From positions 29,183 through 93,182 of the forward strand of contig JAFZBK010000068.1 of the NCBI GenBank assembly GCA_017561825.1: a stretch of 64,000 bases of DNA, written 5' to 3'. Every line of letters begins with the position of its first letter. Position 1 is the stretch's first letter. The position numbers and the translations under genes are program-made. Of the stretch, positions 20,486-59,119 are shown piece by piece. The stretch is from Prevotella sp. GTDB lineage: Bacteria; Bacteroidota; Bacteroidia; Bacteroidales; Bacteroidaceae. A model generated the notes under the pieces. That model did no database searches. It was not told the DNA's origin and saw nothing but the letters and a program-made list of their open reading frames with translations.

Positions 20486-21835
20486 ATGAAGAAGATGAAT
20501 ACCTTGATCAATAGGTTGATGTGCAGTGCCGTATTACTGCCCTTCACCGTCTTCGCTTCGGCGCAGCAGCCGTGGACACTTCGGCAATGTATCGACTATG
20601 CCTTGGAGCATAATATCCAGGTAAAGCAGCAGGATGTAAACCGTCTGCAGCGCGAACTGGATGTAAGCACGGCAAAGAACAGTCGTTTGCCCGACTTATC
20701 CGCCTCTGCCTCCGAGAATTTCTCGTTCGGTCGTGGACTGACTGCCCAGAACACCTATACAAATACGAACACCAGTAGTACCTCGTTCGGTCTGAACACC
20801 AGTGTACCCTTGTTTACTGGATACCGCATCCCAAGAACCTTGGAACTGCAGAAGCTGAACCTTGAAGCAGCCACTGCTGATTTAGAGAAAGCAAAGAACG
20901 ATATCCGCATGCAGGTGGCACAGGCTTATGTGCAGATCCTCTATAACATGGAACTGTGCGATGTGGCCAAACGGCAGATCAGTATCGATTCCATGCATGT
21001 GCACCGTCTTACGGAGATGATGCGAAACGGGAAGGCGAGTGGTACGGAAGTGGCTCAGCAAGAGGCTTCGCTGGCACAAAGTCGTCTTACGGCCACACAG
21101 GCAGACAACGACTACCGCTTGTCGCTGCTTACGCTCAGTCAGTTGCTTGAACTCCCCTCACCTGAGTCCTTCACGATTTCAAGGGATGTGGCAGTACCCG
21201 AGATCCTTCCTTCCATGGATCTCATCTCTCCTGATGCCATCTATCAGGAGGCTTTGATGATCAAGCCTGAGATCCAGGCCGAGCAGTATCGCTTGGAAGG
21301 AACGTTGAAGAGTATCGATATTGCCAAGAGTGCTAAGTTGCCCAACCTCTCTTTTCAGGCAGGACTCGGTTCCAACTACTATAAGACGAGTGGTTATCCC
21401 AGTGATGGCTTCTTCAAGCAGTTGAACAACAACTTCAGTCAGTATATCGGTCTGAGCCTGAGTGTTCCCATCTTCAATCGTTATGAGACCCGTAACAATA
21501 TCAAAAGTGCGCAGCTGAACCGGTATAACCAGCAGTTGCAACTGGATAATGTGAAGAAGGGATTGTACAAGGAGATCCAGCAGGCATATTATAATGCGGT
21601 AGCTGCGCAGGCCAAATACGAGAGCAGTGCTGAGGCCAAGCGCAGTCAGGATGAGGCTTTTCGTCTGATGTCAGCCAAGTATGAGTATGGCAAGGCGAAC
21701 ATCACGGAGTTCAACGAGGCGAAAAACAACCTGATGAAAGCGGAGAGCGACTTGGTGCGGGCTAAATATGAATACCTGTACCAACGTGCGCTGACCGATT
21801 TCTACAGGGGTAGGGAACTGAGTTTCAATGACTGA
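20486..21835 (+). CDS. TolC-family outer-membrane efflux protein
   Basis: A 449-residue outer-membrane channel. The signal peptide probably ends FASA, leaving mature N-terminal QQPWTLRQCIDYALEHNIQ. Two OEP repeats of long helices and beta-strands follow (about 25-225 and 240-445), with landmarks LNTSVPLFTGYR and LSVPIFNRYETRNNIKSAQL. It completes the ATPase, two-permease, adaptor and TolC efflux set. Its 3' end overlaps the convergent GH53 gene by 11 bp. Confidence 0.92.
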   Translation: MKKMNTLINRLMCSAVLLPFTVFASAQQPWTLRQCIDYALEHNIQVKQQDVNRLQRELDVSTAKNSRLPDLSASASENFSFGRGLTAQNTYTNTNTSSTSFGLNTSVPLFTGYRIPRTLELQKLNLEAATADLEKAKNDIRMQVAQAYVQILYNMELCDVAKRQISIDSMHVHRLTEMMRNGKASGTEVAQQEASLAQSRLTATQADNDYRLSLLTLSQLLELPSPESFTISRDVAVPEILPSMDLISPDAIYQEALMIKPEIQAEQYRLEGTLKSIDIAKSAKLPNLSFQAGLGSNYYKTSGYPSDGFFKQLNNNFSQYIGLSLSVPIFNRYETRNNIKSAQLNRYNQQLQLDNVKKGLYKEIQQAYYNAVAAQAKYESSAEAKRSQDEAFRLMSAKYEYGKANITEFNEAKNNLMKAESDLVRAKYEYLYQRALTDFYRGRELSFND

Positions 21836-23081
21836 TTGTCTTTCGCTTCCCTATGATGTACATCCCTTTGGGTAGCGATGCTGTACTTCCGTTGTTGCTG
21901 ACCAGCATCCCCTCCATGGAATAGACATTGTTCAAGGCGGCAATAGCAGGTGTCTCAATCATAGACACACTGGTATTGTCGCCTAAAAAGTTCTTTAACT
22001 CATAGAAGGCGGCATAGGGCTTGCCTGTCTCGTGGTTATACAAGGCGGCATTCCACCAGCCGTAGGTCACGTTCTTGTTCCCATTATCTTCGGGCCACCA
22101 CCAGAACAATCCTTTCACAGACTCGTGCTTGTTGAGCAACGTGATGAGATCAGCGGTGAATTGCCGTTGTCCTTCTTCCGTATAGGGGTATGTCTTGGTA
22201 TAGTCGAACGAGTTCCCGATGGGCCATGCGTAACTATAGCCTGCCTCCACAATCATGATCTCTTTGCCGTACTGCTTCCCCTCAATGGTGTTCAGTGCCG
22301 TTTCAAGGGATTTCATATCACCGTGGTAGTCGGGGTAATAACTCAGTCCGATGATGTCATAGTCAACAGCGGCATTCTTCATCCTGTCAAAGAAATCCGT
22401 CAGGACACTGGGTTTAGGGGTTTGTTCGCTGTGAAGGATAATCCGAGCTTGCGGACATTCCTCGCGACACGCTTTCCCTGCTTGCTTGAGGAGGGTGATG
22501 AAACGGGTCCAGTTAGCCTCAGGGGAATTTATGTAGCAGCGGTTTGCCTGGTTGTTCTTAGCCTCGGCTTCTGTTCCCCAAAGCATACCAAAGGAAATCT
22601 CATTACCCGTCTGAATCATGTCAGGTGTGGCTCCTGCCTCTTTCATCTGTCGAAGACACTCTTTGGTGTATTCGTAGATCTTCACGTATAGCTCCTCGTT
22701 GGAGAGGGCTTTCCACGCATCGGGTGTCCACTGCTTGGCAGGATCTGCCCAGGTGTCGCTGTAGTGGAAGTCGAGCATCAGTTGCATTCCCGCATCCTTG
22801 ATACGCTTGCCAAACTGCTTCACATACTCGAGATCCTGACACACGGCCTTGTCTTTGTCTTTGGATGGATCGACAAACAAACGGACACGCATGGCATTCA
22901 GTCCTTCCTGCTTGAAGAAGGCGAGCACATCGCTGACAGCATTACCCGCAGCATCTCTATAAACTACCCCCGCCTCCTCGTATTTCGGGAGCATGGAGAT
23001 GTCACCCCCCACGTATTTCTGTGCCTGCAGACTAATGCTGCAGGTCAGCAGAATACCTAAACAGAATCCTCTCCACTTCAT
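21825..23081 (-). CDS. Arabinogalactan endo-beta-1,4-galactanase (GH53)
   Basis: A 418-residue secreted glycosidase cutting beta-1,4-galactan. The signal peptide ends LQA with Gln21 next. GH53 landmarks are AMRVRLFVDP, LMLDFHYSDTWADP, the acid/base Glu161 in TGNEISFG and the nucleophile Glu279 in IMIVEAGYSY, then GLFWWWPEDNG. The last about 35 residues (VYSMEGMLVS..., SLPKGMYIIGKR) are a tail shared in style with the two upstream amylases. It is the last gene of the amylase operon, 28 bp behind the second gene, a pairing of pectic galactan and starch enzymes. Confidence 0.93.
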   Translation of the reverse strand: MKWRGFCLGILLTCSISLQAQKYVGGDISMLPKYEEAGVVYRDAAGNAVSDVLAFFKQEGLNAMRVRLFVDPSKDKDKAVCQDLEYVKQFGKRIKDAGMQLMLDFHYSDTWADPAKQWTPDAWKALSNEELYVKIYEYTKECLRQMKEAGATPDMIQTGNEISFGMLWGTEAEAKNNQANRCYINSPEANWTRFITLLKQAGKACREECPQARIILHSEQTPKPSVLTDFFDRMKNAAVDYDIIGLSYYPDYHGDMKSLETALNTIEGKQYGKEIMIVEAGYSYAWPIGNSFDYTKTYPYTEEGQRQFTADLITLLNKHESVKGLFWWWPEDNGNKNVTYGWWNAALYNHETGKPYAAFYELKNFLGDNTSVSMIETPAIAALNNVYSMEGMLVSNNGSTASLPKGMYIIGKRKTISH

Positions 23082-23115
23082 ATATCTCTCATCTTTAATC
23101 TCTCATCTCTCATCT
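23082..23115 (-). repeat. GATGAGA word array before the GH53 gene
   Basis: On the coding strand GATGAGA, GATGAGA and GATGAGAGA words (with ATTAAA between) run from the preceding amylase stop to within 3 bp of the GH53 ATG. Confidence 0.65.
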
Positions 23116-25701
23116 AACCACTTTCTTGCCATTCACGATATAGATGCCCTTGGGCAGATTGGATGGAAGGTCCGTGGAAACACGACGACCATCAATGGTG
23201 TAGATAGCGATGGTGGGACGTTCTGCAACGTTTGACACAATCTCGACAGATGTGGCCACACCCTCGTAGTCGAACAAGGCACCTTTGAGTGTGGCACTCG
23301 ATGTGGCATTCTTGGTGAAGAATCCACGGTAAGGTGCTATCTGCACACCTTCATCCTTTCCAACCTCCACGAACTGGTTGTTGTAATCATAGCAGATGGT
23401 AGCATCGTTACTTATGATAGTCTGATCTTTATCACAGCCGATGAATGAGAAATCACCAACGGTGGCAGTCTGCGCCTCACCTTCTTGCAAGCCTTTCTGA
23501 GCAAATTTGTAGAATGATTTGCCTGTCTCGTCAGCGATAAAGATATAGGGCTTGAAGGCCTCCACTTGGTCAACAGAGCTAAAATGCAGGTAGCCGTTCA
23601 TGTAACCGCTCAGTTCGTACATGCGACCGCTGAGTGATTCTGTTTCTTCCTCGTTGAGGCTGAACGGCAGACAAACGGTGGTGCGTACTCCTGCAGTGAA
23701 ATCACGGTTGAACAGCTGTGCATAACGGGCATTCGCTTCGCTTTGGGTAATAGTCTCTACAGGACCGTCAGCATTGTAATAGGTAGCATTCACGAACTCT
23801 AAATCTTCTGTCTGTTTCCCATTGTTGCCACTGTTGAAGATGATGGTTGTCGGGGTGCTTGCATTTGCTGTAGCCTTCCAGCGATAAACATCATGGCCAC
23901 TGTCCGACTGACCAACCTTTTCAATTATTACACCTGGCCAATCGCCTGTTACGCTAATACTGTTGTCATTATCTATTTTAATAAAAGCATAAGCATACAC
24001 GTTGTCCCAGTTACCTGTATTCTCAAAGTAAGCATAGGTTCCTTCCTGAGGCGTAGCACATGCAGGCAGGTCTTGATAGACATAGTCGATATACTCACTG
24101 GTAACGTTCGTATAATTCCCTCCGCCAGTATAAGTGAAGAACTGGTCACCCACAAGATCCATGATGTCTTCCGTCTGATTACCATCACCTCCGTTTCCGT
24201 TATTCAGAATGGCATTGAGTTTGATGGCATCGTAGGTACGGTAGTACCATGTCTTGCCGTTCACGATCTTGGTTTTGAAGTTGCTTACTTTATCACCAGG
24301 CCATGCAGTGGTCAACGGGTCACCACCTTTCCAGGTATAGAGGTGGGCATTGGTCTGTGCAGGGTCAGTATCCACATAGATGGTAATACCACCGCCAGTC
24401 ACATCTGTCTCGATGAGGTCATCGGGTAGGGTGAGCCCCTTACTCATGTAGAAAGCGAAGTTGGGGTTGGCAGCATCACCACTTACCACCAACTGATAGT
24501 TCTCTTCGAGATGCTTGTCCAGATACTCATTGCCAACTACATATCCACAAATAACGAGGACTTTCCCTTTGGTGCCTTCAGTCTCGATGACGCGGCCACC
24601 ATTCACATTCTCCCAGTCCCAAGTGTTACTCTGGTTGGTGATGCCGGCAGCCTTGCGTGCCAGAATCATTTTCTTCAGTTGGGGTTTGTAGTGCTTCCAA
24701 TGGGTAAGGAAGATGCAGGGAGTACCTGGTAAGCCCAGAATGAGTGCATTGGCCGCCAGAACATTACTGCTGAGACGGTTGGCATCGCGGTAGGTGTCAT
24801 GGTTGTCAACAAAGGTTACCGACCAGCGACGATAATCTTCCACGCCAATGAGTCCTTTATCGGCCAATCCGTTCCAGTTGCCATTGCCGAACACATCGTT
24901 GATGATGAATTTCAGAGGGAAATCGAAGGCGGCTGACTTACCATTACCATAGTCGTATTCAGCTGTCTTGTTGATCCATGCACTTGTATTACCGTAGCCA
25001 TCCCAAAACTCGCCTACAGAGAACTTTGGCTTGGCCGTAGCGTTGTACAATCCTGTATAGTAGCCATTGTATCCTTTCACCATGTCATAGCGGAACCCGG
25101 CATAGCCCAAGTCGTTGAGCAGGAAGTCGAGATACCATTCCACGTTCTGCTGAACGTTCTCACTGGTATGGTCCAGATCGCGGGTACCGTCGAAGTTATC
25201 TCCCGTATCCAAGTTACCTGTGGGCGCATAGCCGTTGTTGGCGGCCTCGTCGTTACTGCAGATATCAGCTAACGACCAGGTGAGCGTATGTCCATCCCAT
25301 GTTTCCTCAGCGAAATCGCACCAGTCTTCAACACCTGCTTTGTGATTGATGACCACGTCTTCGATGATGCCCACATTCTTACTCTTGAACGTGTTGATCA
25401 TGCTGCGCAGTTCATCCTCGGTTCCAAACGTACCGTTATGGTCGAACCACCAGATAGGCATGTAGCCCATCCCTCTACCTGGTCCGCAGTTACCCGAATT
25501 GGGCACCCAGATCAGGTCGAATATCTGTGCCAGCTCATCAGCCTGCTGTTCAAGCTTGGTCCATTTCGTATCAGAGTAAGAGTCCCAGTAAAACCCTTGC
25601 AGCATCACGCCGCCATAGTTTGCAGGCCAACAGCCCTGTGCCATGCTTAGCATGGAGAACAACAGGGCTGCTATTGTAGTAAACAGTTTCTTTATATCCA
25701 T
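23110..25701 (-). CDS. Secreted alpha-amylase (GH13) with two starch-binding-like modules
   Basis: 863 residues. The signal peptide ends at about 21 (SMA before Gln22). The GH13 barrel spans about 28-430 with nucleophile Asp206 (GFRYDMVKG), acid/base Glu231 (SVGEFWDG) and Asp302 (FVDNHDT). Two modules of CBM26 type follow (about 438-533 and 553-645), with ITIYVDTD, WYYRTYD and TIIFNSGNNGKQTEDL. A C-terminal beta domain leads to the tail TIDGRRVSTDL...LPKGIYIVNGKKVV. It should hydrolyse starch outside the cell. It follows the first amylase gene by 10 bp and precedes GH53 by 28 bp. Confidence 0.93.
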   Translation of the reverse strand: MDIKKLFTTIAALLFSMLSMAQGCWPANYGGVMLQGFYWDSYSDTKWTKLEQQADELAQIFDLIWVPNSGNCGPGRGMGYMPIWWFDHNGTFGTEDELRSMINTFKSKNVGIIEDVVINHKAGVEDWCDFAEETWDGHTLTWSLADICSNDEAANNGYAPTGNLDTGDNFDGTRDLDHTSENVQQNVEWYLDFLLNDLGYAGFRYDMVKGYNGYYTGLYNATAKPKFSVGEFWDGYGNTSAWINKTAEYDYGNGKSAAFDFPLKFIINDVFGNGNWNGLADKGLIGVEDYRRWSVTFVDNHDTYRDANRLSSNVLAANALILGLPGTPCIFLTHWKHYKPQLKKMILARKAAGITNQSNTWDWENVNGGRVIETEGTKGKVLVICGYVVGNEYLDKHLEENYQLVVSGDAANPNFAFYMSKGLTLPDDLIETDVTGGGITIYVDTDPAQTNAHLYTWKGGDPLTTAWPGDKVSNFKTKIVNGKTWYYRTYDAIKLNAILNNGNGGDGNQTEDIMDLVGDQFFTYTGGGNYTNVTSEYIDYVYQDLPACATPQEGTYAYFENTGNWDNVYAYAFIKIDNDNSISVTGDWPGVIIEKVGQSDSGHDVYRWKATANASTPTTIIFNSGNNGKQTEDLEFVNATYYNADGPVETITQSEANARYAQLFNRDFTAGVRTTVCLPFSLNEEETESLSGRMYELSGYMNGYLHFSSVDQVEAFKPYIFIADETGKSFYKFAQKGLQEGEAQTATVGDFSFIGCDKDQTIISNDATICYDYNNQFVEVGKDEGVQIAPYRGFFTKNATSSATLKGALFDYEGVATSVEIVSNVAERPTIAIYTIDGRRVSTDLPSNLPKGIYIVNGKKVVR

Positions 25702-25711
25702 TCTTTCCCTA

Positions 25712-27796
25712 CTAATTTACCACCTTCTTGCCATTCACGATATAGACGCCCTTTGGCAGATTCTTGAGTGAAACGCCATTGGGCAGACGTACGCCTTGGA
25801 TAGTGTAGATAAGTGTAGAAGAATTGCGGTTGATGTTGATATCCTCGATGCCCGTAGTTACCACACCCTTCAGTCCGTCCTTATCATAGTAGCCACCATT
25901 CTGGAAGGGGAAGTCGGCCGTCTGTGGTGATCCTGCACTACTGAAGATAATGAATGCAGGTTGTGTGGCTGATGAGTTCTTCTCCTTCGTGCCGTCCCAT
26001 GACCATTTCCACACATCGTTGCCATTGTCGGCCGTCCAGATCTTCACGCAGTCCACACCCGGCCAGTTCTGGCGCTGTGAGAAAGTGAAGTTGTCGGATG
26101 GCGTGTTGGTCCATGCCCAGCAGGCAATCGTTGATGTCCAGTTGACGGGAGCCTCAAAGAAGGCGCACACTTCGTTCTCGCCCATGGTACAGAAAGCAGG
26201 GATGACGAACTGCTCAGGATGATCCTCTTTCAGCGTATAGGAACGACTAATCACGCTTGTTACGCTTCCGTTCACCAGTAATCCCACCTTCAGGATATAG
26301 TTACCTTCCTCAGAGAACGAAAGTGATGTGCCACTGTCAACCTTCGTATTTGCAGCCGTTGGCTCGGAACCATCGAGCGTATAAACCAGCTGTGCGTTTT
26401 CGTTCTCAGATACCGCGATGAGACGTACATTGAAAGCCTCCTTATAAGTACCCGACATCTTATCTGTCCATGCCACCTCGGCCTTCTTGGTAAGGTAGTA
26501 TTTATAATGATAGCCCGAGAGGATCTCCTGCCACTGACTGTTGGGTTGGTAGCCGTCGGTATTACTTCCCACCACTACGATCAGTCGGTTCTCATCGTTC
26601 GTTTTGATCAGGTTGGCATAATACTCCTTCGCGCTGCGCATATTCGAGTAACTGCTCGTATTGGTGATGCCTGCCACCTTACGCGCTTCGATCATTGCCT
26701 TAATCTCAGGCTTGTAGGCCTGCCAGTGCTTGAGGAACACACAGGGTGTACCCGGCATGGCCAGCAGGAAGGCATTGGCGGCCAGCGTATCCTTCCTGAT
26801 GGGATCCTGTTCGGCATTGGAACGTTTCTCTGTGTCGTGGTTCTCAATGAAGGTCACGGCATACTGACGGTAGGAAGCATCAGCCATCACACTGGTGTTC
26901 GCTAGTTTTTTCCAGTCGTTGCCATTGGCAGCATCACGCACGGTATAGCGGAAGGGGAAGTCGAAGACGGCACTCTGAATCTTCCCATCGTACTTAGTGG
27001 CATCTACCCATTTCTTGCAATTGGTGGCATTACCATCCCAGAACTCTCCCACAGAGTAGGTGGGGTTACTGGCGTTGTTGTATATGCCGAAATACTTGGC
27101 GGGGAAGCCCTTTGCCACATCGTAGCGGAAGCCAGAATAGCCGAACTCATCACTAAGGAGCATGTTCAGGTAAGCCTTGACGTTGGTCTGAACGTTCTCG
27201 CTGGCATGGTCAAGGTCGCGCATGCCACCCCAGCCCTCGCACTTACCGCCATACACCTCACTGATTCCTTCAGTGTTGGAGCTAAGACTATAGCCGTTCT
27301 TGTCGGCCCACTCTTTCGTCTTCCCGTCATCATCGTCAGCCACGATGTCGGTAGATTTCAGTTCGTAGGTCACGCCATTATAGGTCTCTCTGGGGAAGTC
27401 CACCCAGTTGCTGACATTACTACGATGGTTGATGACGATATCCGCAATGGTTCCCAATCCCTTCCCCTTGAAGGTCTTTATCATCGAAACGAGTTGTTCC
27501 TTCGTTCCAAAAGAAGAATTGTAGTTGGAAAACCAGTAAAGGGGATCATAACCCATCGAGGTGGAATTGGCAGCTTTGGCACTCTGCGGAATCCATATAA
27601 GGCTGAAACTGCCAGCCAGCTCATCAGCCTGACTCTCCAGCAGTGCCCACTGGGTATCGTCGAAAGAATCCCAGTAGAACCCCTGCAGCATCACGCCACC
27701 GTAGTTCTGTGGCCAACCCTGTGCAGAAGCACTATTTGTGCTACCCCATGTTACCAATACGGCAACCATGCTGAAAAAGTACAATAGTTTTTTCAT
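25712..27796 (-). CDS. Secreted alpha-amylase (GH13) with one starch-binding-like module
   Basis: 694 residues from the ATG at 27796 (MKKLLYFF); an in-frame ATG 33 bp further out lies in leader sequence. The signal peptide ends SASA before Gln26. The GH13 barrel runs about 30-435, with Asp226 (GFRYDVAKG), Glu251 (SVGEFWDG) and Asp321 (FIENHDT). A chitobiase-C-like beta domain (VYTLDGSEPTAANT) follows, then one CBM26-like module (about 545-645) and the tail IYTIQGVRLPNG...LPKGVYIVNGKKVV. First gene of a three-gene operon. Two TATCTTTG boxes and a LacI-type site lie upstream. Confidence 0.93.
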   Translation of the reverse strand: MKKLLYFFSMVAVLVTWGSTNSASAQGWPQNYGGVMLQGFYWDSFDDTQWALLESQADELAGSFSLIWIPQSAKAANSTSMGYDPLYWFSNYNSSFGTKEQLVSMIKTFKGKGLGTIADIVINHRSNVSNWVDFPRETYNGVTYELKSTDIVADDDDGKTKEWADKNGYSLSSNTEGISEVYGGKCEGWGGMRDLDHASENVQTNVKAYLNMLLSDEFGYSGFRYDVAKGFPAKYFGIYNNASNPTYSVGEFWDGNATNCKKWVDATKYDGKIQSAVFDFPFRYTVRDAANGNDWKKLANTSVMADASYRQYAVTFIENHDTEKRSNAEQDPIRKDTLAANAFLLAMPGTPCVFLKHWQAYKPEIKAMIEARKVAGITNTSSYSNMRSAKEYYANLIKTNDENRLIVVVGSNTDGYQPNSQWQEILSGYHYKYYLTKKAEVAWTDKMSGTYKEAFNVRLIAVSENENAQLVYTLDGSEPTAANTKVDSGTSLSFSEEGNYILKVGLLVNGSVTSVISRSYTLKEDHPEQFVIPAFCTMGENEVCAFFEAPVNWTSTIACWAWTNTPSDNFTFSQRQNWPGVDCVKIWTADNGNDVWKWSWDGTKEKNSSATQPAFIIFSSAGSPQTADFPFQNGGYYDKDGLKGVVTTGIEDININRNSSTLIYTIQGVRLPNGVSLKNLPKGVYIVNGKKVVN

Positions 27797-27826: not shown

Positions 27827-27834
27827 CAAAGATA
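27827..27834 (-). promoter_or_regulatory. Alternative -7 box (TATCTTTG) before the amylase operon
   Basis: Minus-strand TATCTTTGCAAAG occurs twice, 21 bp apart. This inner copy is 31 bp from the start codon. It has no TTG at the right distance, and the outer copy shares its spacing with the sus promoter, so the outer one is favoured. Confidence 0.4.
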
Positions 27835-27847
27835 ATCATTCTCTTTG

Positions 27848-27879
27848 CAAAGATAAGTATTTTTTGCATGGGTTGTATG
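27848..27879 (-). promoter_or_regulatory. Regulated promoter of the amylase operon
   Basis: On the minus strand CATACA (27874-27879) is followed after 18 bp by TATCTTTG (27848-27855). There is no TTG at -33. The same CATACA-N18-TAnnTTTG layout stands before susC (51226-51257). Confidence 0.6.
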
Positions 27880-27908
27880 CCTTGTCACTATTTTTCTTTG
27901 CGTGAATG

Positions 27909-27924
27909 ATGCAAACGGTTGCAT
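27909..27924. promoter_or_regulatory. LacI-type operator upstream of the amylase operon
   Basis: ATGCAAACGGTTGCAT is a 16-bp near-palindrome with central CG, as LacI-family operators have. Its core GCAAACGGTTGC differs by one base from GCAAACGTTTGC at 51288-51303, the site between susC and the LacI gene. Confidence 0.65.
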
Positions 27925-30213: not shown

Positions 30214-33200
30214 ATGATGAAGTTACGTACCATACTTATTTGGGTGATCTTGTCACCTCTTCTTTCTTGCTCCACTTGGGGATATTTCTTCCGTACCGTT
30301 GATGTAAAAGACGGTTTGGCGGATAATTTTGTGAGGGATATAGTGCGTGACAGTTACGGCTATATCTGGTTTTCCAGCATCAATGGACTCAGTCGTTACG
30401 ATGGTTATCGGTTCAACAAATATATGCCGCAGCAGTTCGGTGGTCGTAACAACGATGTGACCATGGTGAGAGAGACTGCCGACAAGACCCTTTGGATGGT
30501 CTGCTCAGGCGATTTATATACGTATGTGCAAAGTGAGGATTCGTGGAAGAAAGACGGTAACGACCAACTGTCTGCCCTCGGGGTGAAAGGAACGATGAAG
30601 GTGTTCTATGTGGATGAAAAACATAACCTGTGGGTGGCAACCGATGCAGGGTTGTTCTATTACGACTATTCCATAAAGAAACTCTATGATATGGCCAGTT
30701 TCAGTAAGTCGCCTGTCTCGCATATCGTTTCGAAGAACGGTACCACGGTGGTGGTTACTGCCGACCATAAGATCTACGAGGTGGCAGAGAACAAGGACCG
30801 CCTTACCTTTGTCACCCAGGCACCATCGGTGACATACAGTCGTGACAGTCGTGTGTTCCTCGATAGCAAGATGAACATCTGGTTTTACGACTCGCACTCG
30901 CTGGCTGGTACGCAAGGACTCTTTTCGTTGAAAACCAGACAGTGGCAGCAGTTGTCGGAACTGGCACAGATAGGTAATGTGTTCGTGAATGCTATCACAG
31001 AGGATAACGAAGGAAACTTGTGGGTGGGAACGGATAATGCCGGTGTTCATATCTTTGCCTACCAAGACAAAGCGCTTGGATTAAACAAGGTGATGAGCAT
31101 GAATGCGTTCATGACACGAAGCAGTCATGTGTTCTGTTTCTACCTTGATGACAACAACACGATGTGGGTAGGCTCGGCCAAGTTAGGTGCGGCCTTTGCC
31201 GATTTGTGCAATCCAACCTTTAATCTTGTTTCCACAGGCGATCATGAAGACGTGAGTGCTTTGGTGCAAGACAGCAAGGGTAATCTGTGGATTGGTTTCG
31301 ACGGAGAAGGCATCGTGTCAAAGACGGCAGCCGGTGGGGTAACCCATTTCTCGGCCTTACGAGGACAGTTGCCCTCGAACATCATCACTTCCCTTCTTCT
31401 TCGTGCTGACGGTTCGTTGTTGACAGGTACCTATGGAAGTGGTATTGCCAAGTACAACGGATCGGCCTTCACACCTATTTATACAGATTATCCCACCCTG
31501 AAATACGTGAAGGCGATGGCAGCAGACATCCATGATAACCTTTGGGTGGCAACGGTTGACAGGGGCGTGGTGCGAATCACTCCGCAGGGGAAGACCGTGA
31601 ACTTCACTACCGAGAACTCATCGCTGCTATCCAACGGTACGCTCTGTCTGGCCTGCGACTCGCTGCGGGGTATGCTGTATATAGGAACATCGATGGGCGT
31701 GTCGGTATATGACTGTAACAAAGAGCAGTTCGTCCAACCGGAGCAGTTTGCCAAGCTGAAAGGTTCTTATGTGTCGTCGCTGATGGTTGACCATCGCAGT
31801 GTCTTATGGATTGGCTGCAGAGACGGTCTTCGGGTGTATAGTCCCCATAGCGATGCCATGTATCACCTGACCACCGAAAACGGTATGTCGCACAATGCCG
31901 TCAGGGCCATGACGATGGCTACCGATAAGATTACCGGAGTGGATGGGGGAAGATGTGTGTGGGCCAGTACGGATAACGGTCTGACATGCATCACCATCCA
32001 CATTGACGAGAATAGAAAGGCTACCTATAAGTGTTATCCGTTCCTGGATTCCGACGGTCTGCAAAACGTAGTGTTCTCTAACAATGCCGCCCTGACCACC
32101 GCTGATGGGACGGTCTTGCTGGGCTGTTTCACGGGTTATGTCAGCATTCCGCAGGAGGGCATCACCATACACTATCCCCGACTGATGACGCAGTTTACGG
32201 AATGTAGGGTGAACAGGAAAGAGGTCCCGTTGTCGCAAACCGACTTCACTGTTCATTACAACGACCCGTTCAACATCTCCGTGTCGGCCATGGTTCCGGC
32301 ACTGAATCAGAAGATCAAGTACCTCTATCGTTTCGAGGGTGAAGAGGAATGGACAAGAGCACCGGGAAGTACGCTCTACTTCGTATCGCTAAGACCAGGA
32401 AAGCATGTGTTGCAGGTGAAGGCGGTGCTACCCGATATGACGGAAAGTGAAATTGCCGAACTGCCCATTAAGGTGTTGCCGCCCTTCTGGCAGTCGAAAC
32501 CCGCCCTGCTCTTCTACCTGTTACTCCTGTTGGGTGCCGTCTATTTGATATATAGAGCCTTGTCGTACAGACAACGACGAGAGATCGCCATGAAGCAGAT
32601 GGAGATCAACCTGAAGAAGTATGATATGGAGGAACAGAAGATCCGGTTCTTTACCAATATCAGTCACGACCTCAAGACACCGTTGACGCTGGTGGTTGCC
32701 CCGTTAGAGAAGATACGCGAAGCCAGTCTGCCGGCACCCATCCGCACGGAGCTGGATGTGGCTTGGCGGAATGCGCGTCAGCTCTATGATTTGGTGTTGG
32801 AACTGTTGGATTTCCGTCGTCTGGATGTGGGCATGGAGAAGCTGAACCTCAAGCATGGGGATATCGTGGGCTTTGTCAGACAGACCGTTCAGGGCTTTGC
32901 CTATTATGTGATGCGCAAGCAGATCAAGCTGCAGATGCTGTTGCCGCAGGAGTCGGTGGAGATTGATTTCGACGAAAACAAGATGCGACGCATCATCACC
33001 AACCTGCTGTCGAACGCGTATAAGTATAATGTGGATAACGGCTCTGTAACCGTTACGCTCACCACCAATGCTGGTCCCAATCCTACACTGGTGCTCAGTG
33101 TGGCCGATACTGGAATCGGTGTGAACGATAAACGACATATCTTCGACCGCTTCATCCAGGAGACACACGGACAGGAGCAGGAAGGTAGCGGACTGGGTCT

Positions 33201-34143
33201 GCATATCGTGAAGCAATATGTGGATATGATGGGAGGCAGCATCGACGTGACGGATAACAAACCTCAGGGAACCATCTTCACGGTAACCTTACCCATCACG
33301 GAATCCAGCGAGGCGGTGATAGAGGATATCACCGACACGGATACTTCGTTCCTGACGGAGCCTGTCAAAACCGAAAAGACTACTACGAAGCCCATCATCC
33401 TGGTGGTTGATGACAATGAGGATGCCCGGTTGTTCCTGCAACGCAGTCTGGATGATGAATACCATGTGCTCATCGCCGCAAACGGTAAGGAGGCATTGGA
33501 TCAGCTGGCCATGACGGATGATGTGAGCATCGTGATCTGTGATGTGATGATGCCTGTGATGGATGGTATCACGTTCTTCCGTAAAGTGAAGAGCGACTTC
33601 CGCTATTCGCACATCCCTGTGGTGTTGCTGACAGCCAAGAGCAATGAGGAGAACATTGTTGCCGGACTGGAAGAGGGTGTTGCCGATTATATCACCAAGC
33701 CTTTCAGCTTAGCAGTGCTGCGGTTACGTATCCGCAAAATCCTGGAGTGGACACAAAACGTACACAGTAAGGTGGCTACAGGAATAGAGATCAAGCCCAG
33801 CGAGATTACTGTGAGCTCATTGGACGAGGAACTGATCAGTCATATCATTTCCCTGATCGAAGAGAACATACAGGATACAGAGTATTCGGTTTCGCAGTTG
33901 AGTGCTGCGGTGGGCATGACTCGCGGTCATCTGTACAAGAAGCTCATGGCCATCACCGGTAAGTCGCCCGTGGAGTTCATCCGAATCATCAAGATGAAAC
34001 GCGGAAAGAGTCTGCTCGACCAGGGTAAGACCAATATCTCTGAGGTGGCCGACATGGTGGGCTTCTCTGCCAAGATGTTCGCCCATTACTTCAAGATGAT
34101 GTATGGCACCACACCATCAGAGTACTTAAGGAAACGCAAATAA
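30214..34143 (+). CDS. Hybrid two-component system regulator (sensor kinase, receiver and AraC DNA-binding in one chain)
   Basis: 1309 residues. Signal or anchor at 1-20, then a periplasmic two-bladed propeller region of reg_prop repeats (to about 680) rich in (L/I)WxGT(D/A)xGL motifs, a Y_Y_Y domain (about 690-755) and one membrane helix (about 764-785). Cytoplasmic parts are HisKA with His818 (NISHDLKTPLTL), HATPase (NLLSNAYKYN, DTGIGV, GSGLGLHIVKQ), a receiver with Asp1110 (ICDVMMPVMDG) and a C-terminal AraC HTH (about 1200-1309). Such proteins bind oligosaccharides in the periplasm and activate the adjacent polysaccharide locus, here GH3, GH9 and an OMP gene. Confidence 0.95.
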   Translation: MMKLRTILIWVILSPLLSCSTWGYFFRTVDVKDGLADNFVRDIVRDSYGYIWFSSINGLSRYDGYRFNKYMPQQFGGRNNDVTMVRETADKTLWMVCSGDLYTYVQSEDSWKKDGNDQLSALGVKGTMKVFYVDEKHNLWVATDAGLFYYDYSIKKLYDMASFSKSPVSHIVSKNGTTVVVTADHKIYEVAENKDRLTFVTQAPSVTYSRDSRVFLDSKMNIWFYDSHSLAGTQGLFSLKTRQWQQLSELAQIGNVFVNAITEDNEGNLWVGTDNAGVHIFAYQDKALGLNKVMSMNAFMTRSSHVFCFYLDDNNTMWVGSAKLGAAFADLCNPTFNLVSTGDHEDVSALVQDSKGNLWIGFDGEGIVSKTAAGGVTHFSALRGQLPSNIITSLLLRADGSLLTGTYGSGIAKYNGSAFTPIYTDYPTLKYVKAMAADIHDNLWVATVDRGVVRITPQGKTVNFTTENSSLLSNGTLCLACDSLRGMLYIGTSMGVSVYDCNKEQFVQPEQFAKLKGSYVSSLMVDHRSVLWIGCRDGLRVYSPHSDAMYHLTTENGMSHNAVRAMTMATDKITGVDGGRCVWASTDNGLTCITIHIDENRKATYKCYPFLDSDGLQNVVFSNNAALTTADGTVLLGCFTGYVSIPQEGITIHYPRLMTQFTECRVNRKEVPLSQTDFTVHYNDPFNISVSAMVPALNQKIKYLYRFEGEEEWTRAPGSTLYFVSLRPGKHVLQVKAVLPDMTESEIAELPIKVLPPFWQSKPALLFYLLLLLGAVYLIYRALSYRQRREIAMKQMEINLKKYDMEEQKIRFFTNISHDLKTPLTLVVAPLEKIREASLPAPIRTELDVAWRNARQLYDLVLELLDFRRLDVGMEKLNLKHGDIVGFVRQTVQGFAYYVMRKQIKLQMLLPQESVEIDFDENKMRRIITNLLSNAYKYNVDNGSVTVTLTTNAGPNPTLVLSVADTGIGVNDKRHIFDRFIQETHGQEQEGSGLGLHIVKQYVDMMGGSIDVTDNKPQGTIFTVTLPITESSEAVIEDITDTDTSFLTEPVKTEKTTTKPIILVVDDNEDARLFLQRSLDDEYHVLIAANGKEALDQLAMTDDVSIVICDVMMPVMDGITFFRKVKSDFRYSHIPVVLLTAKSNEENIVAGLEEGVADYITKPFSLAVLRLRIRKILEWTQNVHSKVATGIEIKPSEITVSSLDEELISHIISLIEENIQDTEYSVSQLSAAVGMTRGHLYKKLMAITGKSPVEFIRIIKMKRGKSLLDQGKTNISEVADMVGFSAKMFAHYFKMMYGTTPSEYLRKRK

Positions 34144-34146
34144 TAG

Positions 34147-34185
34147 AATTGAAAAATTGAAGAATTGAAAAGTTGAAAAATTAAA
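34147..34185 (+). repeat. AATTGAAAA/GAATTGAAG word array
   Basis: Four GAA(A/G)AATTGAA-type words fill the spacer between the hybrid regulator stop and the GH3 start at 34197. The same word is used at 60625-60680. Confidence 0.65.
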
Positions 34186-34196
34186 GAATAACATAT

Positions 34197-36431
34197 ATGA
34201 CAAACAAGAAACAAAAAATCCTGTTAACGACAGTCGTTGCGCTCACTGTCGTCATACAGGTAGTAGCCCAACCCTCGGCTGTGGGGAAGTATTCCACACG
34301 CCTGTTGGGAAACGAGCAGCAGATTGAGTCCATCATCAAGAGCATGACCCTCGAAGAGAAGATAGACATGCTTCACGGCAAGAATATGTTCTCCTCGGCA
34401 GGCATCCCGCGATTAAACATTGCGGATGTGGAATATGCCGACGGTCCTTTCGGTATTCGTGAGGAGATGGAGCCGCACTCATGGAACTCCGCCCACCTCA
34501 CTACCGACTCTGCCACATTCTTCCCCACAGGCTCTGCCTTGGCGGCCACATGGAGCACCGAATGGGCTTATGCCTACGGACGAGGAATGAGTCGTGAGGC
34601 CCGACTGCGTGGAAAGGATATGATTCTCGGTCCTGCCATCAACATACAGCGTGTTCCTACTGGAGGACGAACCTATGAGTACCTGAGCGAGGATCCTCTG
34701 CTCAGTGGTGCCTTGGCCGTAGCCTATACCCGAGGAGCGCAGGAGGATGGAACAGCGGTGTGTCTGAAGCACTATGCCCTGAACAACCAGGAGGATTACC
34801 GCGGTTTCGTGGATGTGCATATCTCTGACAGGGCCATGCACGAGATCTATCTACGACCCTTTGAGATGGCTGTGCGCGAGGCAGATGCCTGGGGTGTGAT
34901 GGCTGCCTATAACAAGGTGAACGGGCGGTGGTGCTCTGAGAACGAGAAACTGCTCAATACCATCCTCCGTCAGCAGTGGGGATTCCCGGGAATGGTGATC
35001 AGCGACTGGGGCGGCGTACATTCTACAGTGGATGCTGTTACGTCGGGTATGAACGTGGAGATGCCTGGCAGTCGTTTCATGGGTAAGGCCCTGCTCGATT
35101 CCGTGATGGCGGGTAAGGTGAGCGAGGAGGTGATCAACCAGCGTGTCAGGGAGATTCTCCGTGTAAGATTCACCGTAAAACCCATCGCAAAGGAAGAGGC
35201 CAACCGTCGTCCGGTAGGTAATGCCGAGGAGATGCAGGTAGCCTTAGAGGTGGCCCGACGCTCCATCGTGCTGTTGAAGAATGAGAACTTATTACCCATC
35301 AATACTAAACGTACCAAGACGATTGCCGTTATCGGTGAGAATGCGGTTACCAAGATGGCCTTGGGTGGTGTGGGCGCTGGTGTGAAAACCCGCAAGGAGA
35401 TCACTCCGCTGGAAGGCTTGCAGGAAGCACTGGGTAACAACGTGAAGATTACCTATGCGCCTGGTTACAAGGGCTTCAGTCGTGGGGGGCGTGGTAGAAG
35501 TCAGGCTCCTCAGCAGGAAGTGGATCAGGAACTGCTTGCTCAGGCTGTGGAAGTAGCCCAACAAGCCGACCTCGTCATCTTCTTCGCAGGTAACAACCGT
35601 AAGGTGGAGACGGAGGGTTCTGACCGCAAGACTATCACCTTGCCCTCAGCACAGGATGAGGTGGCTTCGGCGTTGGCCAAAGCGAACAAACGAATGATCA
35701 CTGTTATCGTATCTGGTTGTCCGGTGGATGTGAGTACGATAAGCACTGTGTCTGGTGCATTGGTGGCATCATGGTTCAATGGCTCCATGGGCGGACAGGC
35801 ATTGGCAGAGGTGCTTACAGGGAAGGTGTCGCCTTCTGGTAAGCTTCCCATGACATGGCCGAAGCGGTTGGAGGATGTGCCGGCATACGCTACGGGTAGT
35901 TTCCCGCAGACTGTTGAGAATAACAACCAGGGCGATATCTTCGTCGATATCACCCGCAACCGCAGCAACCAGCGTAACCAACAGCTGGTGGCTAACTATT
36001 CTGAGGAAGGGATGGTGGGCTATCGTTGGTATGATGACAAGCAGGTTGCTGTGGCCTATCCTTTCGGATTCGGACTCTCCTATGCGAAGTTCAAGTATAG
36101 TAACCTCAAGGTGGTGCCGACAAAGGAAGGATTTGATGTGCAGTTCGTGCTCACCAATAAGTCGAAGACCGCTGCCGAGGAGGTGGCACAAGTGTATGTG
36201 TCGCGCCCTTCTTCTCAACTGGAGCGACCAGTGAAGGAGCTGAAGGGCTTCCTGCGAGTGGCGATGAAAGCTGGCGAGCGGAAGACCGTTACTGTTCCGA
36301 TTCGTCGTGCCGATCTCTGTCACTGGGATGAGGCGTCACAGTCGTGGGCGTTGGAGCCAGGAAGTCTTACCATTCTTGTTGGCGGCTCATCGGATAACCT
36401 GCCATTGACACAAAGTACAGAAATCAAATAA
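34197..36431 (+). CDS. Secreted beta-glucosidase-like glycoside hydrolase (GH3)
   Basis: 744 residues. The signal peptide ends VVA before Gln25. The GH3 N-domain (about 45-340) contains the nucleophile Asp270 in VISDWGGVHS and KHYALNNQE (substrate-binding KH); the GH3 C-domain (about 375-600) follows, then an FN3-like domain (about 650-740). It should release terminal beta-linked glucose or xylose. Two basic, Gln-rich insertions occur (GGRGRSQAPQQ near residue 428 and NRSNQRNQQ near 588). The next gene, a GH9 enzyme, begins 8 bp later, so the two probably degrade one beta-glucan. Confidence 0.93.
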   Translation: MTNKKQKILLTTVVALTVVIQVVAQPSAVGKYSTRLLGNEQQIESIIKSMTLEEKIDMLHGKNMFSSAGIPRLNIADVEYADGPFGIREEMEPHSWNSAHLTTDSATFFPTGSALAATWSTEWAYAYGRGMSREARLRGKDMILGPAINIQRVPTGGRTYEYLSEDPLLSGALAVAYTRGAQEDGTAVCLKHYALNNQEDYRGFVDVHISDRAMHEIYLRPFEMAVREADAWGVMAAYNKVNGRWCSENEKLLNTILRQQWGFPGMVISDWGGVHSTVDAVTSGMNVEMPGSRFMGKALLDSVMAGKVSEEVINQRVREILRVRFTVKPIAKEEANRRPVGNAEEMQVALEVARRSIVLLKNENLLPINTKRTKTIAVIGENAVTKMALGGVGAGVKTRKEITPLEGLQEALGNNVKITYAPGYKGFSRGGRGRSQAPQQEVDQELLAQAVEVAQQADLVIFFAGNNRKVETEGSDRKTITLPSAQDEVASALAKANKRMITVIVSGCPVDVSTISTVSGALVASWFNGSMGGQALAEVLTGKVSPSGKLPMTWPKRLEDVPAYATGSFPQTVENNNQGDIFVDITRNRSNQRNQQLVANYSEEGMVGYRWYDDKQVAVAYPFGFGLSYAKFKYSNLKVVPTKEGFDVQFVLTNKSKTAAEEVAQVYVSRPSSQLERPVKELKGFLRVAMKAGERKTVTVPIRRADLCHWDEASQSWALEPGSLTILVGGSSDNLPLTQSTEIK

Positions 36432-36439
36432 TTACAATC

Positions 36440-39043
36440 ATGAGATACTTATTATCACTATTTACGGTGCTGCTGACAGGAATTACTGTTGGTCATGCAC
36501 AGGATTTGAAGTTGAACGACCGTGAATACTTCGAACGTCAGGGAGTGAATATCCTGGTGTTCAGCAACAGTTTCAACGGTGGTTTCAATGATGAGAAGAA
36601 CTCGGGTATTGAGATTATTCAGCATGGTGTACGATCCATTCAAGGTGGTGCCGTACGACTGAACAATACGCCTGAACAGTGGGACCTTGTGCCGAAGATG
36701 ACCAGCAGGAAGGTGAATCGCGAGGATGGGAGTATTGAGGTTGCCATGCGTTATGATGATTACGACTTCGACAGTCGGGCCGTGGTAACCGCAAAGGGTA
36801 TGGCGGTGGAGATAGCCGTATGGTTGGACAAGCCCGTGCCTGATGCTTTGGCTGGTGAGGCTGGTTTCAACCTGGAGTTCCTGCCCTCGAAGTATTGGCT
36901 GAAGACCTTCATCATGGACGGTCGTCTGAACCGTTTCCCGCGCTATGCAACGAGTCAGACCATCACCCGCCCCAACAGTGAGAAGCCTCGTCAGTTCAAG
37001 GGGTTCAAGACCTACGATGATCGTGGTACGGATCGCTTTGTAGATCCCCTGCCTCTTGAGACGGGTCATCGCATCGTGATGGCTTCTGATGATCCTGAAC
37101 ACATGATCACCATCAGTTGCGACGATGCAGAACTGAAACTCTTCGATGGAAGAATGCTGGCACAGAACGGCTGGTTCGTGTTGCGCAGTGTGCTGCCGAA
37201 GGGAAAGACGGGTAAGGTGATTACTTGGACAGTGGAACCTCATGCCATTCCTAACTGGATTCGTGAGCCGAATATCGGTTTCTCACAGGTGGGCTATATT
37301 CCCGATCAGCCGAAGGTAGCCGTCATCGAGCTCGACAAGAATGATCAGCCACAGACAACCGCCTCGCTGATGCGTATCAACCCTGATGGTACCACGGAGC
37401 AGGCTTTCACAGGGAATATCCAGAACTGGGGTCCTTACTTCAAATATAATTATGTGAAGTTCGACTTCTCTACAGTCAAGCAGCCGGGTGTCTATTATAT
37501 CCAATATGGTAAGACGCGTACCAATGATTTCCTGATTGATGAGCATGTGTATGACAAGATCACTGATGCCACCACGGATGTATGGGTGCCCATCCACATG
37601 AACCACATGTATGTGACAGAGGGTTATCGTACCTGGCATGGTGAACCGTTCAAGGAGGGTTACCTGCAGGCACCGCCCAGTGATCATTTCGACCTGCACA
37701 GACAGGGGCCGACCACGGATACCAAGTACAAGCCTTATGAACTGATTCCAGGACTGAATATCGGTGGTTTCTTTGATGCAGGTGACTTTGACATCGAGAC
37801 GGGCTCGAACATCAGTGTGGTACAGAACTTCATCCGTACATGGGAACTGTTCAAGCCGCAGCGCGACGAGACCTTCGTGAGTCAGCAGCAGCGTTATGTT
37901 GACCTGCACCGTCCTGATGGTGTGCCTGATATCCTTCAGTTCATCGAGCATGGCACCCTGAACCTCGTGGCACAGGCTGAGCAGATCGGACACATGGCCT
38001 CGACACTCTCCAACTCCATCCTCGACAACTATCATCACCTGGGCGACGCAGCCAGCATCACCGACGGTCTGCATTACGATCCGAGTCTGAAGCCTTACGA
38101 GGTGTCGGCTGACGGTAAGCGCAGCGGTACACCAGATGATATGTGGGCATTCACTACCCGTAATCCGAGTCTTGACTTCCAGGCTGCCACGATGTTTGCA
38201 GCTGCCAATCGTGCGCTCACAGGCTATAACAACGATCTGGCCGCCCGTGCCTTGACACAGTCGAAACGACTGATGCAAGAGGCTACCGAGCTGATGAACC
38301 AGCGCAGAAACCAAACGTTCGAAGGTCAGGGGAACTGGGACGGCAATTTCTATAACAATGCGAATAACGGTAACAACGCGAATCGTCGTCAGAACCGCGG
38401 TCGTAACAACCGTGGTGACCTGGCCACCAATCTGCAGCTCTATGCGGCCACGAAGGAGAAGCAGTATCTGGAGAGTTTCCAGCAACAGATCTGGCAGGCC
38501 CTCGATCGTAATGTCTCCAATACCATGCAGACTGCCCTGGATGCCATTCCTTATATGGATGAGGCTTACAAGCAACAGCTGCGCCCCTACGTGGAGAAGT
38601 ACGAGGAGTATATCTCACGCTTTGATGAGCAGAACCCCTATGGTGTGCCCATTGGATTGGGTAACTGGGCTGGTGGCAATGCTGTACTAAGTTTTGGTAC
38701 AACGGTGTGCTTTGCGCATCTCTACTTCCCGGAGATCGTTCCGAAGAAAGAGGTGTATCGCGTGGCCAACTGGCTCTATGGCTGTCATCCTTACCACAAC
38801 TACTCGTTTGTGGCTGTAGTAGGCGCTACTCGTCCTAAGCAGGTGTTCTATGGAAATAACCGTGCCGACTTTTCGTTCATTCCAGGTAATGTGGCGCCAG
38901 GACTGCTGTTCCGTCAGCCCGACCATTTCGAGAACTTCGACGACTGGCCATTCCTCTGGGGACAGAACGAGGGAACGATTGCAGGTAATACACAGTATAT
39001 CATTTTTGGCTCCGCACTGAAGGATGCTGTAAATAAAAGATAA
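36440..39043 (+). CDS. GH9 family endoglucanase-like protein
   Basis: 867 residues with a signal peptide ending GHA before Gln21. Residues about 20-265 form an all-beta domain I do not recognise. A CelD_N immunoglobulin-like domain (about 272-370, NIGFSQVGYIPDQPKVAVIE) leads to the GH9 catalytic domain with the GGFFDAGDFD motif (about 443-452), GATRPKQVFYG region and the acidic NEGTIAGN near the end. An Asn/Arg-rich insertion (NNANNGNNANRRQNRGRNNR, residues about 638-658) interrupts the catalytic domain. Probable role: endo-cleavage of cellulose-like or mixed-linkage beta-glucan feeding the GH3 enzyme. The gene is followed 3 bp later by an OMP gene. Confidence 0.88.
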   Translation: MRYLLSLFTVLLTGITVGHAQDLKLNDREYFERQGVNILVFSNSFNGGFNDEKNSGIEIIQHGVRSIQGGAVRLNNTPEQWDLVPKMTSRKVNREDGSIEVAMRYDDYDFDSRAVVTAKGMAVEIAVWLDKPVPDALAGEAGFNLEFLPSKYWLKTFIMDGRLNRFPRYATSQTITRPNSEKPRQFKGFKTYDDRGTDRFVDPLPLETGHRIVMASDDPEHMITISCDDAELKLFDGRMLAQNGWFVLRSVLPKGKTGKVITWTVEPHAIPNWIREPNIGFSQVGYIPDQPKVAVIELDKNDQPQTTASLMRINPDGTTEQAFTGNIQNWGPYFKYNYVKFDFSTVKQPGVYYIQYGKTRTNDFLIDEHVYDKITDATTDVWVPIHMNHMYVTEGYRTWHGEPFKEGYLQAPPSDHFDLHRQGPTTDTKYKPYELIPGLNIGGFFDAGDFDIETGSNISVVQNFIRTWELFKPQRDETFVSQQQRYVDLHRPDGVPDILQFIEHGTLNLVAQAEQIGHMASTLSNSILDNYHHLGDAASITDGLHYDPSLKPYEVSADGKRSGTPDDMWAFTTRNPSLDFQAATMFAAANRALTGYNNDLAARALTQSKRLMQEATELMNQRRNQTFEGQGNWDGNFYNNANNGNNANRRQNRGRNNRGDLATNLQLYAATKEKQYLESFQQQIWQALDRNVSNTMQTALDAIPYMDEAYKQQLRPYVEKYEEYISRFDEQNPYGVPIGLGNWAGGNAVLSFGTTVCFAHLYFPEIVPKKEVYRVANWLYGCHPYHNYSFVAVVGATRPKQVFYGNNRADFSFIPGNVAPGLLFRQPDHFENFDDWPFLWGQNEGTIAGNTQYIIFGSALKDAVNKR

Positions 39044-39046
39044 GAG

Positions 39047-45124: not shown

Positions 45125-45144
45125 AATCGTAAACGCTTAATTAG

Positions 45145-46380: not shown

Positions 46381-46383
46381 AAC

Positions 46384-46413
46384 CAATTGTCAATTATCAA
46401 TTATCAATTATCA
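46384..46413 (-). repeat. ATTGATA word array before the SusE-like gene
   Basis: On the coding strand TGATAATTGATAATTGATAA and TTGACAATTGG fill the spacer between the SusD-like stop and the SusE-like start. Confidence 0.65.
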
Positions 46414-48026: not shown

Positions 48027-48086
48027 AATCTTCGTTGTTTTATTGTTTCCAAGAACTACTTTCTTCAATTATCAATACATCCATTC

Positions 48087-51225: not shown

Positions 51226-51257
51226 CAAATTTAGTATTACTTTCGTTAAGGTGTATG
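51226..51257 (-). promoter_or_regulatory. Regulated promoter of the sus-type operon
   Basis: On the minus strand CATACA (51252-51257), 18 bp, then TAAATTTG (51226-51233). No TTG at -33, which fits dependence on an activator. The spacing is identical to the amylase promoter at 27848-27879. Confidence 0.65.
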
Positions 51258-51287
51258 AAAAAATGATATAAATCAAGTAAATACATT

Positions 51288-51303
51288 GCGCAAACGTTTG
51301 CGC
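51288..51303. promoter_or_regulatory. LacI-type operator between susC and the LacI gene
   Basis: GCGCAAACGTTTGCGC is a perfect 16-bp palindrome with a central CG, as LacI-family operators have. It is 54 bp upstream of the sus -7 box and overlaps the -33 element of the divergent LacI gene promoter. Confidence 0.8.
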
Positions 51304-51328
51304 GTTTGAATCTTTATTATTATTTTTG
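51298..51328 (+). promoter_or_regulatory. Promoter of the LacI-family regulator gene
   Basis: TTG (51298-51300), 20 bp, TATTTTTG (51321-51328). Its -33 lies inside the palindrome, so the regulator would shut off its own gene. Another TATCTTTG at 51358-51365 is near the ATG and has no partner at -33. Confidence 0.75.
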
Positions 51329-51381
51329 CAGACGAACTACTGAAACAATCTTTTGCATATCTTTGCAAAGAGAAATAGCCT

Positions 51382-58984: not shown

Positions 58985-59111
58985 CCCCAAATCACATTTC
59001 CATAGGTGCCCCATTCTTCCATTATATAACCAACTGATTTGCAACATCTTCTCTTTTTACTGCTTTGTATATTTTCCATAGGTAACTGATACAACTTATC
59101 AAAAATTGCCT

Positions 59112-59119
59112 TATCTTTG
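59112..59119 (+). promoter_or_regulatory. -7 box (TATCTTTG) for the TPR-HTH gene
   Basis: TATCTTTG stands 48 bp before the ATG at 59168. No TTG lies at the expected -33. Confidence 0.45.

Follow-up and report, generated by a model that had tools for sequence, protein, structure and literature searches.

A LacI-family protein as probable activator of a Prevotella starch regulon, from an operator at a near-constant distance upstream of its promoters

We propose that the LacI-family protein encoded at 51382–52407 (plus strand) of a 64,000-nucleotide stretch of Prevotella DNA (hereafter, the window) activates a starch regulon from a palindrome lying upstream of the promoters, a reading to which we assign a probability of about 0.8. 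The co-regulation of genes for starch cutting and starch uptake that this would entail is strongly supported by the positions of predicted sites and genes, whereas we infer from the sequence that the protein binds there, that it activates, which effector it senses and that it contacts RNA polymerase. Of the features common to the promoters concerned, the most important is how far the −7 box stands from a 12-base operator core (55 and 56 bp) and not the hexamer CATACA that two of them share.

Read on the minus strand from position 27924, the promoter of the amylase operon comprises a candidate LacI-family operator, ATGCAACCGTTTGCAT (27909–27924; core at 27911–27922), 29 bp, CATACA at the place of a −33 element (27874–27879), 18 bp and the −7 element TATCTTTG (27848–27855), 55 bp from the operator core. 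The susC promoter, on the same strand, runs from the candidate operator GCGCAAACGTTTGCGC (51303–51288) through 30 bp, CATACA at the corresponding place (51252–51257) and 18 bp to the −7 element TAAATTTG (51226–51233), 56 bp from the core. Here the operator (51288–51303, unstranded, with a perfectly palindromic core at 51290–51301) is common to susC and the divergent lacI gene, the −7 element of which (TATCTTTG, 51358–51365, plus strand) stands on the side opposite to susC, 56 bp away from this core. An earlier, sequence-only reading had described the amylase and susC promoters as built to one plan, and on re-reading the sequence we found its elements, spacings and coordinates exact, the amylase operator having been given in its plus-strand form. 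The amylase promoter also contains TTATCTTTGCAAAG twice, 21 bp apart (27827–27855), and so offers two possible −7 boxes, the second TATCTTTG lying 21 bp further down (27827–27834, minus strand).

The genes behind these promoters encode a recognizable starch system. The amylase operon (minus strand) begins with a GH13 alpha-amylase (25712–27796, start codon at 27796 by hand reading) and continues with a second GH13 alpha-amylase that carries a CBM26 (23110–25701); the third gene in the run, for which co-transcription is assumed, encodes a GH53 protein (21825–23081), an odd companion for two amylases in a starch operon. The sus operon (minus strand) encodes a SusC-type TonB-dependent receptor (48087–51146, start codon at 51146 by hand reading), a SusD-type protein (46419–48068) and SusE/SusF-type proteins (43205–46386) assigned through Pfam domains (that is, SusE and SusF_SusE in 45145–46386, and SusF_N slightly below the cut-off in 43205–45124). 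On gene content only, a Sus-type starch utilization set (susC, susD, susE/F and amylases) is thus present, and divergent from susC lie lacI and, behind it, a gene for a major facilitator superfamily (MFS) sugar transporter (52482–53789, plus strand). The products encoded between the two starch operons (30214–41980) include a hybrid two-component regulator and an outer-membrane barrel protein, together with a GH3 protein and one that has a cellulase N-terminal domain.

The resemblance between these promoters goes beyond chance, in agreement with the sequence-only reading. In the source genome (a 2.98 Mb draft, 88% complete), GCAAACGNTTGC occurs at four places (that is, before the amylase operon, between susC and lacI, on contig C35 and, on contig C23, within the closing part of a coding region), and the one on contig C35 precedes a GH77 4-alpha-glucanotransferase with a CBM20, that is, malQ, so that three of the four exact places precede starch genes. 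A genome-wide scan for CATACA-N18-TAnnTTTG, the promoter part of the pattern that the same reading had proposed to scan for, returned three places, two of which are the promoters described here, against one for a reversed-pattern control. Within the window, the CATACA promoter plan with one mismatch permitted matched three times (shuffled sequences: mean 0.38, largest 2), whereas the operator core alone, with up to two mismatches, is not rare (24 matches against a shuffled mean of 15). A one-mismatch version of the plan, GATACA-N18-TATCTTTG, stands at 59088–59119, and no operator core with up to two mismatches was found near it.

At malQ, ATTCCA occupies the place of CATACA, and the −7 box TAATTTCG, which has one mismatch, is 56 bp away from the operator core when counted by hand. 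Since malQ keeps the same distance without CATACA and the −7 box of lacI also stands at 56 bp, what stays constant is the spacing between operator and −7 box. The shared three-element plan therefore stands in so far as it concerns an operator and a −7 box at fixed distance, and fails in so far as CATACA is not generally part of it. CATACA alone could have arisen by chance, and a recent copying of one promoter might produce the same likeness; yet the spacers outside the named elements are unlike each other by eye, leaving no copying visible, and the rarity of the pattern across the genome together with the conservation of sites upstream of the same genes throughout the genus makes either origin exceedingly improbable.

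The spacing was then compared across genomes, with loci chosen both through the pattern and independently of it. Allowing gaps of 42–66 bp between operator and −7 box, the pattern was matched in 126 of 150 genomes of the genus, against 3 matches in all for the reversed-pattern control, and among 30 loci kept from this search, one per genome, 28 had a gap of 55–57 bp, with one at 54 and one at 50. On the assumption of 25 equally likely gaps and of independent loci, the odds of such a concentration would be approximately 6e-24, a figure to be read with the caveat that related genomes are not independent. Gaps of 67–97 bp were matched in only 19 of the same 150 genomes (21 rows), and some of these rows are further −7 boxes at sites already counted. 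The 238 operator promoters considered further below were collected with the gap limited to 53–58 bp, and their gap counts are thus no test of spacing.

Loci chosen through the LacI protein, with the pattern unused, gave the same picture. The search returned 69 loci, of which a distant one from Acetatifactor was excluded, leaving 68 from Prevotella, Segatella, Hoylesella and unnamed Prevotellaceae, Bacteroidaceae and Bacteroidales records. The exact operator core GCAANCGNTTGC lies within 400 bp before lacI in 57 of these; the other 11 comprise six with one mismatch, two cut by a contig end and three with no operator. From the exact operator, a −7 box is found at 55–57 bp on the lacI side in all 57 (17, 33 and 7 at 55, 56 and 57 bp) and on the susC side in 53 (21, 29 and 3, respectively). 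Both the distance and the helix face are therefore held (57/57 and 53/57 here, 28/30 in the pattern-chosen loci), which is what an activator acting from a fixed upstream position, that is, one of class I type, would require, and such near-constancy indicates that the distance matters. For the amylase genes, 30 loci were chosen through the protein from 80 genomes (the source genome included), with up to one mismatch permitted in the operator and in the −7 box; 22 have an operator with a −7 box at 55–57 bp (four of them with a one-mismatch −7 box) and 8 have none, whereas shuffled upstream regions yielded such a site in 0 of 600 cases.

In a wider family sample, LacI matches at 1e-40 or better were present in 26 of 121 genomes, and the 30 loci kept divide into 22 (L200–L221) with proteins 51–100% identical and 8 less similar (31–38%). 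An operator with at most one mismatch precedes lacI in 22 of the 22, and in 21 a −7 box (TAnnTTTG or TAnnTTCG) lies 54–57 bp from it toward lacI, L218 having a −7 box at this spacing solely on the side away from the gene. Two loci (L209 and L214) carry two operators each, every divergent promoter having its −7 box 55–56 bp from its own copy. None of the 8 less similar loci shows the 54–57 bp spacing, and four of them (L222, L223, L224 and L227) have instead an operator-like site at 18–19 bp from a −7 box, a position that would suit a repressor. A plan common to the whole phylum is not supported: 29 of 296 phylum genomes matched with gaps of 42–70 bp, and gaps of 55–57 bp were read only in the source genome and in one other genome of the same family (G387), in a sample that held three genomes of the family.

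The genes that follow the site were examined in 76 site rows, drawn from the window and from 40 regions (17 other genomes and the source genome), regions that, those of the source genome apart, had been picked for pattern matches and so show which genes follow rather than how frequent the site is at starch genes. The rows comprise 18 before susC, 18 before lacI, 11 before malQ, 13 before an amylase and 16 before another gene or no called gene; one of these 16 (G045) precedes a GH97 protein of the susB type, and in another genome (G042) a protein with nearly the same beginning occupies a like place. That the genes behind the site (that is, amylases, susC, malQ and lacI) make up a starch regulon is strongly supported by this gene content. 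The suggestion that a single LacI regulator governs both the cutting and the uptake of starch accordingly gains support from the following genes, from the 22 of 30 amylase loci and from the co-occurrence with lacI described below; the extent of the regulon, correct for the amylase and sus operons, had been drawn too narrowly, as lacI itself and malQ also belong. In three genomes (L131, L138 and L151), an identical operator promoter with a spacing of 57 bp precedes a 321-amino-acid protein with the same beginning, which in L131 is a beta-lactamase according to Pfam and which we take to be CfxA; the three probably represent a single mobile copy.

The −33 region differs between promoters with and without the operator. 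We compared 238 unique operator promoters with 86 generic promoters lacking the operator, the latter chosen mechanically from the same DNA and not through mapped transcription starts. TTG at −33, which the earlier reading had found missing from the amylase and susC promoters of the window, is indeed absent there and, in the wider set, occurs in 0/85 susC and 0/29 amylase promoters, against 29/86 generic ones; it is present in 3/89 lacI and 4/17 malQ promoters, so that three of the four promoter kinds (susC, amylase and lacI) have a weak −33/−35 element and malQ keeps TTG in part. ACA at −29 to −27 is found in 38/85 susC, 7/29 amylase, 15/89 lacI, 1/17 malQ and 6/86 generic promoters. With like sequences removed, TTG stands at 0/61 for susC and 0/27 for amylase promoters, and ACA at 22/61 and 7/27, respectively; Fisher tests on the counts for this region used all sequences, de-duplicated counts being available for part of them. 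We accordingly reject CATACA as a general third element, since only ACA is enriched, at susC, weakly at amylase and not at malQ promoters; judged from these counts, CATACA is the form taken locally by a weaker ACA element that is clearest at susC. In the spacer on the lacI side, GTACGCG recurs at nine loci (L045, L046, L049, L051, L052, L053, L057, L059 and L106).

The protein at 51382–52407 has the domains of the LacI/GalR family, with an N-terminal LacI helix–turn–helix (PF00356, residues 8–53) and a periplasmic-binding-protein-like sensor domain over the rest (PF13377 and PF00532), all above the Pfam cut-off, and the palindrome before its gene, GCAAACGTTTGC, has the central CG that is typical of operators of this family. 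Its closest named relatives, with 97% identity, are from Prevotella sp. records. Its best matches of solved structure include CcpA proteins, the first two being named glucose-resistance amylase regulator, but it falls far short of the NCBIfam equivalog cut-off for CcpA (TIGR01481, 156.6 bits against 442.35). An identity with SusR, a membrane protein with a periplasmic sensor domain, is not supported, as Pfam gives LacI-type domains alone, over residues 8–340 of 341.

That another protein occupies the operators (that is, one of the LacI-type proteins encoded on contigs C38 and C49, or an unrelated one) would be conceivable, given that the genome encodes three LacI-type proteins and that, among the 150 genomes of the genus, 9 have the pattern with no lacI orthologue at the cut-off used. 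However, 117 of these genomes have both lacI and pattern, 21 have neither and 3 have lacI only (58, 7 and 1, respectively, with 2 pattern only, among the 68 genomes that are at least 90% complete), 57 of the 68 lacI loci have the operator ahead of lacI itself and the 8 less similar LacI loci lack the distance, so that we hold a different binder to be quite improbable.

On the preferred reading, the LacI-family protein would be a cytoplasmic sensor, probably of maltose or a short maltooligosaccharide imported by the adjoining MFS transporter. A dimer would sit on the palindrome, on one helix face and centred approximately 73 bp upstream of the transcription start (near −73 by arithmetic, provided that −7 is the centre of the −7 box, as described in passages of PMC7366714), and would recruit RNA polymerase to promoters with a good TAnnTTTG −7 box and mostly no TTG at −33. 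The targets activated in this manner would be the amylase operon, the susCDEF operon, malQ and the protein's own lacI–mfs operon, a single central operator serving both divergent promoters between susC and lacI. Activation through contact with RNA polymerase is suggested by a promoter that the dimer would leave uncovered, by the near-constant distance, by the general lack of TTG at −33 and by the doubled operators; the proposal of an activator-type regulator made in the sequence-only reading is in this way supported indirectly, by the upstream position, the near-invariant spacing, the missing TTG and the doubling at L209 and L214. Weighing against it are the 8 amylase loci with no such site and the 4 with an imperfect −7 box, the 11 lacI loci lacking an exact operator, the genomes in which pattern and lacI occur apart (9 and 3), the 16 site rows with no starch gene called behind them and the TTG kept by 4 of 17 malQ promoters.

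Most known LacI-family proteins are repressors, and the same protein might instead repress all of these promoters, through looping or by hindering an activator, until released by sugar. Sites of repressors usually vary in place, whereas the spacing here is nearly fixed across genera; moreover, promoters of which most have no TTG at −33 ought to be weak unless assisted. For looping, no second exact operator lies near the three sites of the source genome, the nearest weak one being a two-mismatch site at 51345–51356 of a kind that is common by chance. Hindrance of an activator has a precedent in the lev cre site, which represses from upstream of its promoter (PMC3463425, in the passages available), and a second palindrome does lie between operator and promoter in 17 of 85 susC promoters, yet it is absent from most of them. 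At lacI, a possible second −7 element (TATTTTTG, 51321–51328, plus strand) stands 19 bp from the core, where the operator would cover its −33 region, and a second TAnnTTTG at 18–21 bp from the core on the lacI side recurs in 14 of the 68 lacI loci (some of them near-identical relatives); in these 14 loci the second promoter, if used, would be blocked by a bound operator, and there may be repression there. As an account of the whole regulon, repression seems to us improbable.

The second palindrome is TTGA-N6-TCAA, which we take to be CRP/FNR-like. In the window it appears with one mismatch as TTGATTTATATCAT (51263–51276, minus strand), on the susC side of the operator core and 13 bp beyond it. 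Exact copies are present in 17 of 85 susC promoters, against a shuffled mean of 0.1, at −43 (15) or −44 (2) from the −7 box, and with like sequences removed in 12 of 61, all 13 bp after the core. A composite activation at susC, in which a CRP/FNR-family protein at this palindrome acts together with LacI, and LacI alone is insufficient, would explain these numbers as well as the near copy at the source genome's own susC and the exact copies in 12 of 89 lacI promoters, including three Segatella copri loci in which it lies on the lacI side, 11 bp beyond the core. Most susC promoters, 27 of 29 amylase promoters (the other 2 having it) and all 17 malQ promoters nevertheless lack the exact palindrome, its place on the lacI side varies (11, 23 and 24 bp), and it is unlike the motif printed for the Crp-like protein BT4338 of Bacteroides (wwwTATGTTnTAnAACATAwww; passages of PMC3878776 and PMC6989115). 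We therefore regard a requirement for both proteins at susC as possible but doubtful, and activation by the LacI-family protein as the better account of the regulon as a whole. A carbohydrate regulon defined by the palindrome in the source genome is not supported; TTGATTTANNTCAW occurs there at three places, and the two others (L231 and L232) lie before a 120-amino-acid protein and before what is presumably a GreA-like gene.

CcpA recognizes a palindrome of the same type as the operator described here. It is a LacI/GalR-family protein that in Bacillus subtilis (for example, at ackA, pta and ilvB) activates from sites upstream of −35 in a helix-face-dependent manner, as is proposed here, although its role is global catabolite control, mostly by repression (PMC3463425, in part), rather than activation of a local starch regulon, and the phylum of the present host uses a different sigma factor and type of promoter (PMC7366714, in part). 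In Bacteroides thetaiotaomicron, starch genes are controlled by SusR, a maltose-responsive activator of susA and susBCDEFG; according to the passages of PMC3878776 that describe it, SusR is a membrane protein that senses in the periplasm and binds direct-repeat sites, in contrast to a LacI-type protein with a palindromic site. A further parallel is offered by the sus loci of Bacteroides fragilis and Bacteroides uniformis, which are said to have predicted LacI-type regulators and MFS transporters and no SusR, and which we liken to the present locus by description and not by orthology; the relevant passages of PMC11633381 give no operator, spacing or mode of action for these regulators. The LacI-family regulons tabulated for the related genus Bacteroides (KdgR, UxaR, UxmR and UxuR) serve uronic acid pathways, with none for starch in Table 2 of PMC3878776, and a large study of LacI-family regulons had one Bacteroides group, its accessible sections naming no starch regulator (PMC4052901). 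We found no paper describing the operator or its spacing in the open literature, outside which most subscription journals lie. Segatella copri DSM18205 grows on maltose and not on starch (PMC11784079, in part), which suggests that the regulon may serve maltooligosaccharides in that organism.

In summary, the comparison of sequences points to a LacI-family regulator, probably an activator, with a rigid two-sided promoter geometry, that probably fills the role that SusR has in Bacteroides thetaiotaomicron. More tentatively, and at somewhat less than even odds, we envision that Prevotella and its sister genera use a soluble LacI-family activator in that role and so control starch use from inside the cell, that one mirror-placed dimer activates susC and lacI at once (in some species with a CRP/FNR-type protein 13 bp away) and that the operator was doubled where the two promoters drifted apart, which would preserve its distance from each of them. 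The literature that we found treats the control of starch use in Bacteroidales through SusR (passages of PMC3878776 and PMC11633381). For the starch-using Prevotella of the rumen and gut, the present analysis yields a regulon and a promoter rule that are open to direct test, the fixed two-sided geometry offers a way to study how sigma-ABfr promoters can be activated by a protein of the LacI family, and the same geometry could guide, for laboratory strains, the design of sugar-inducible expression tools.
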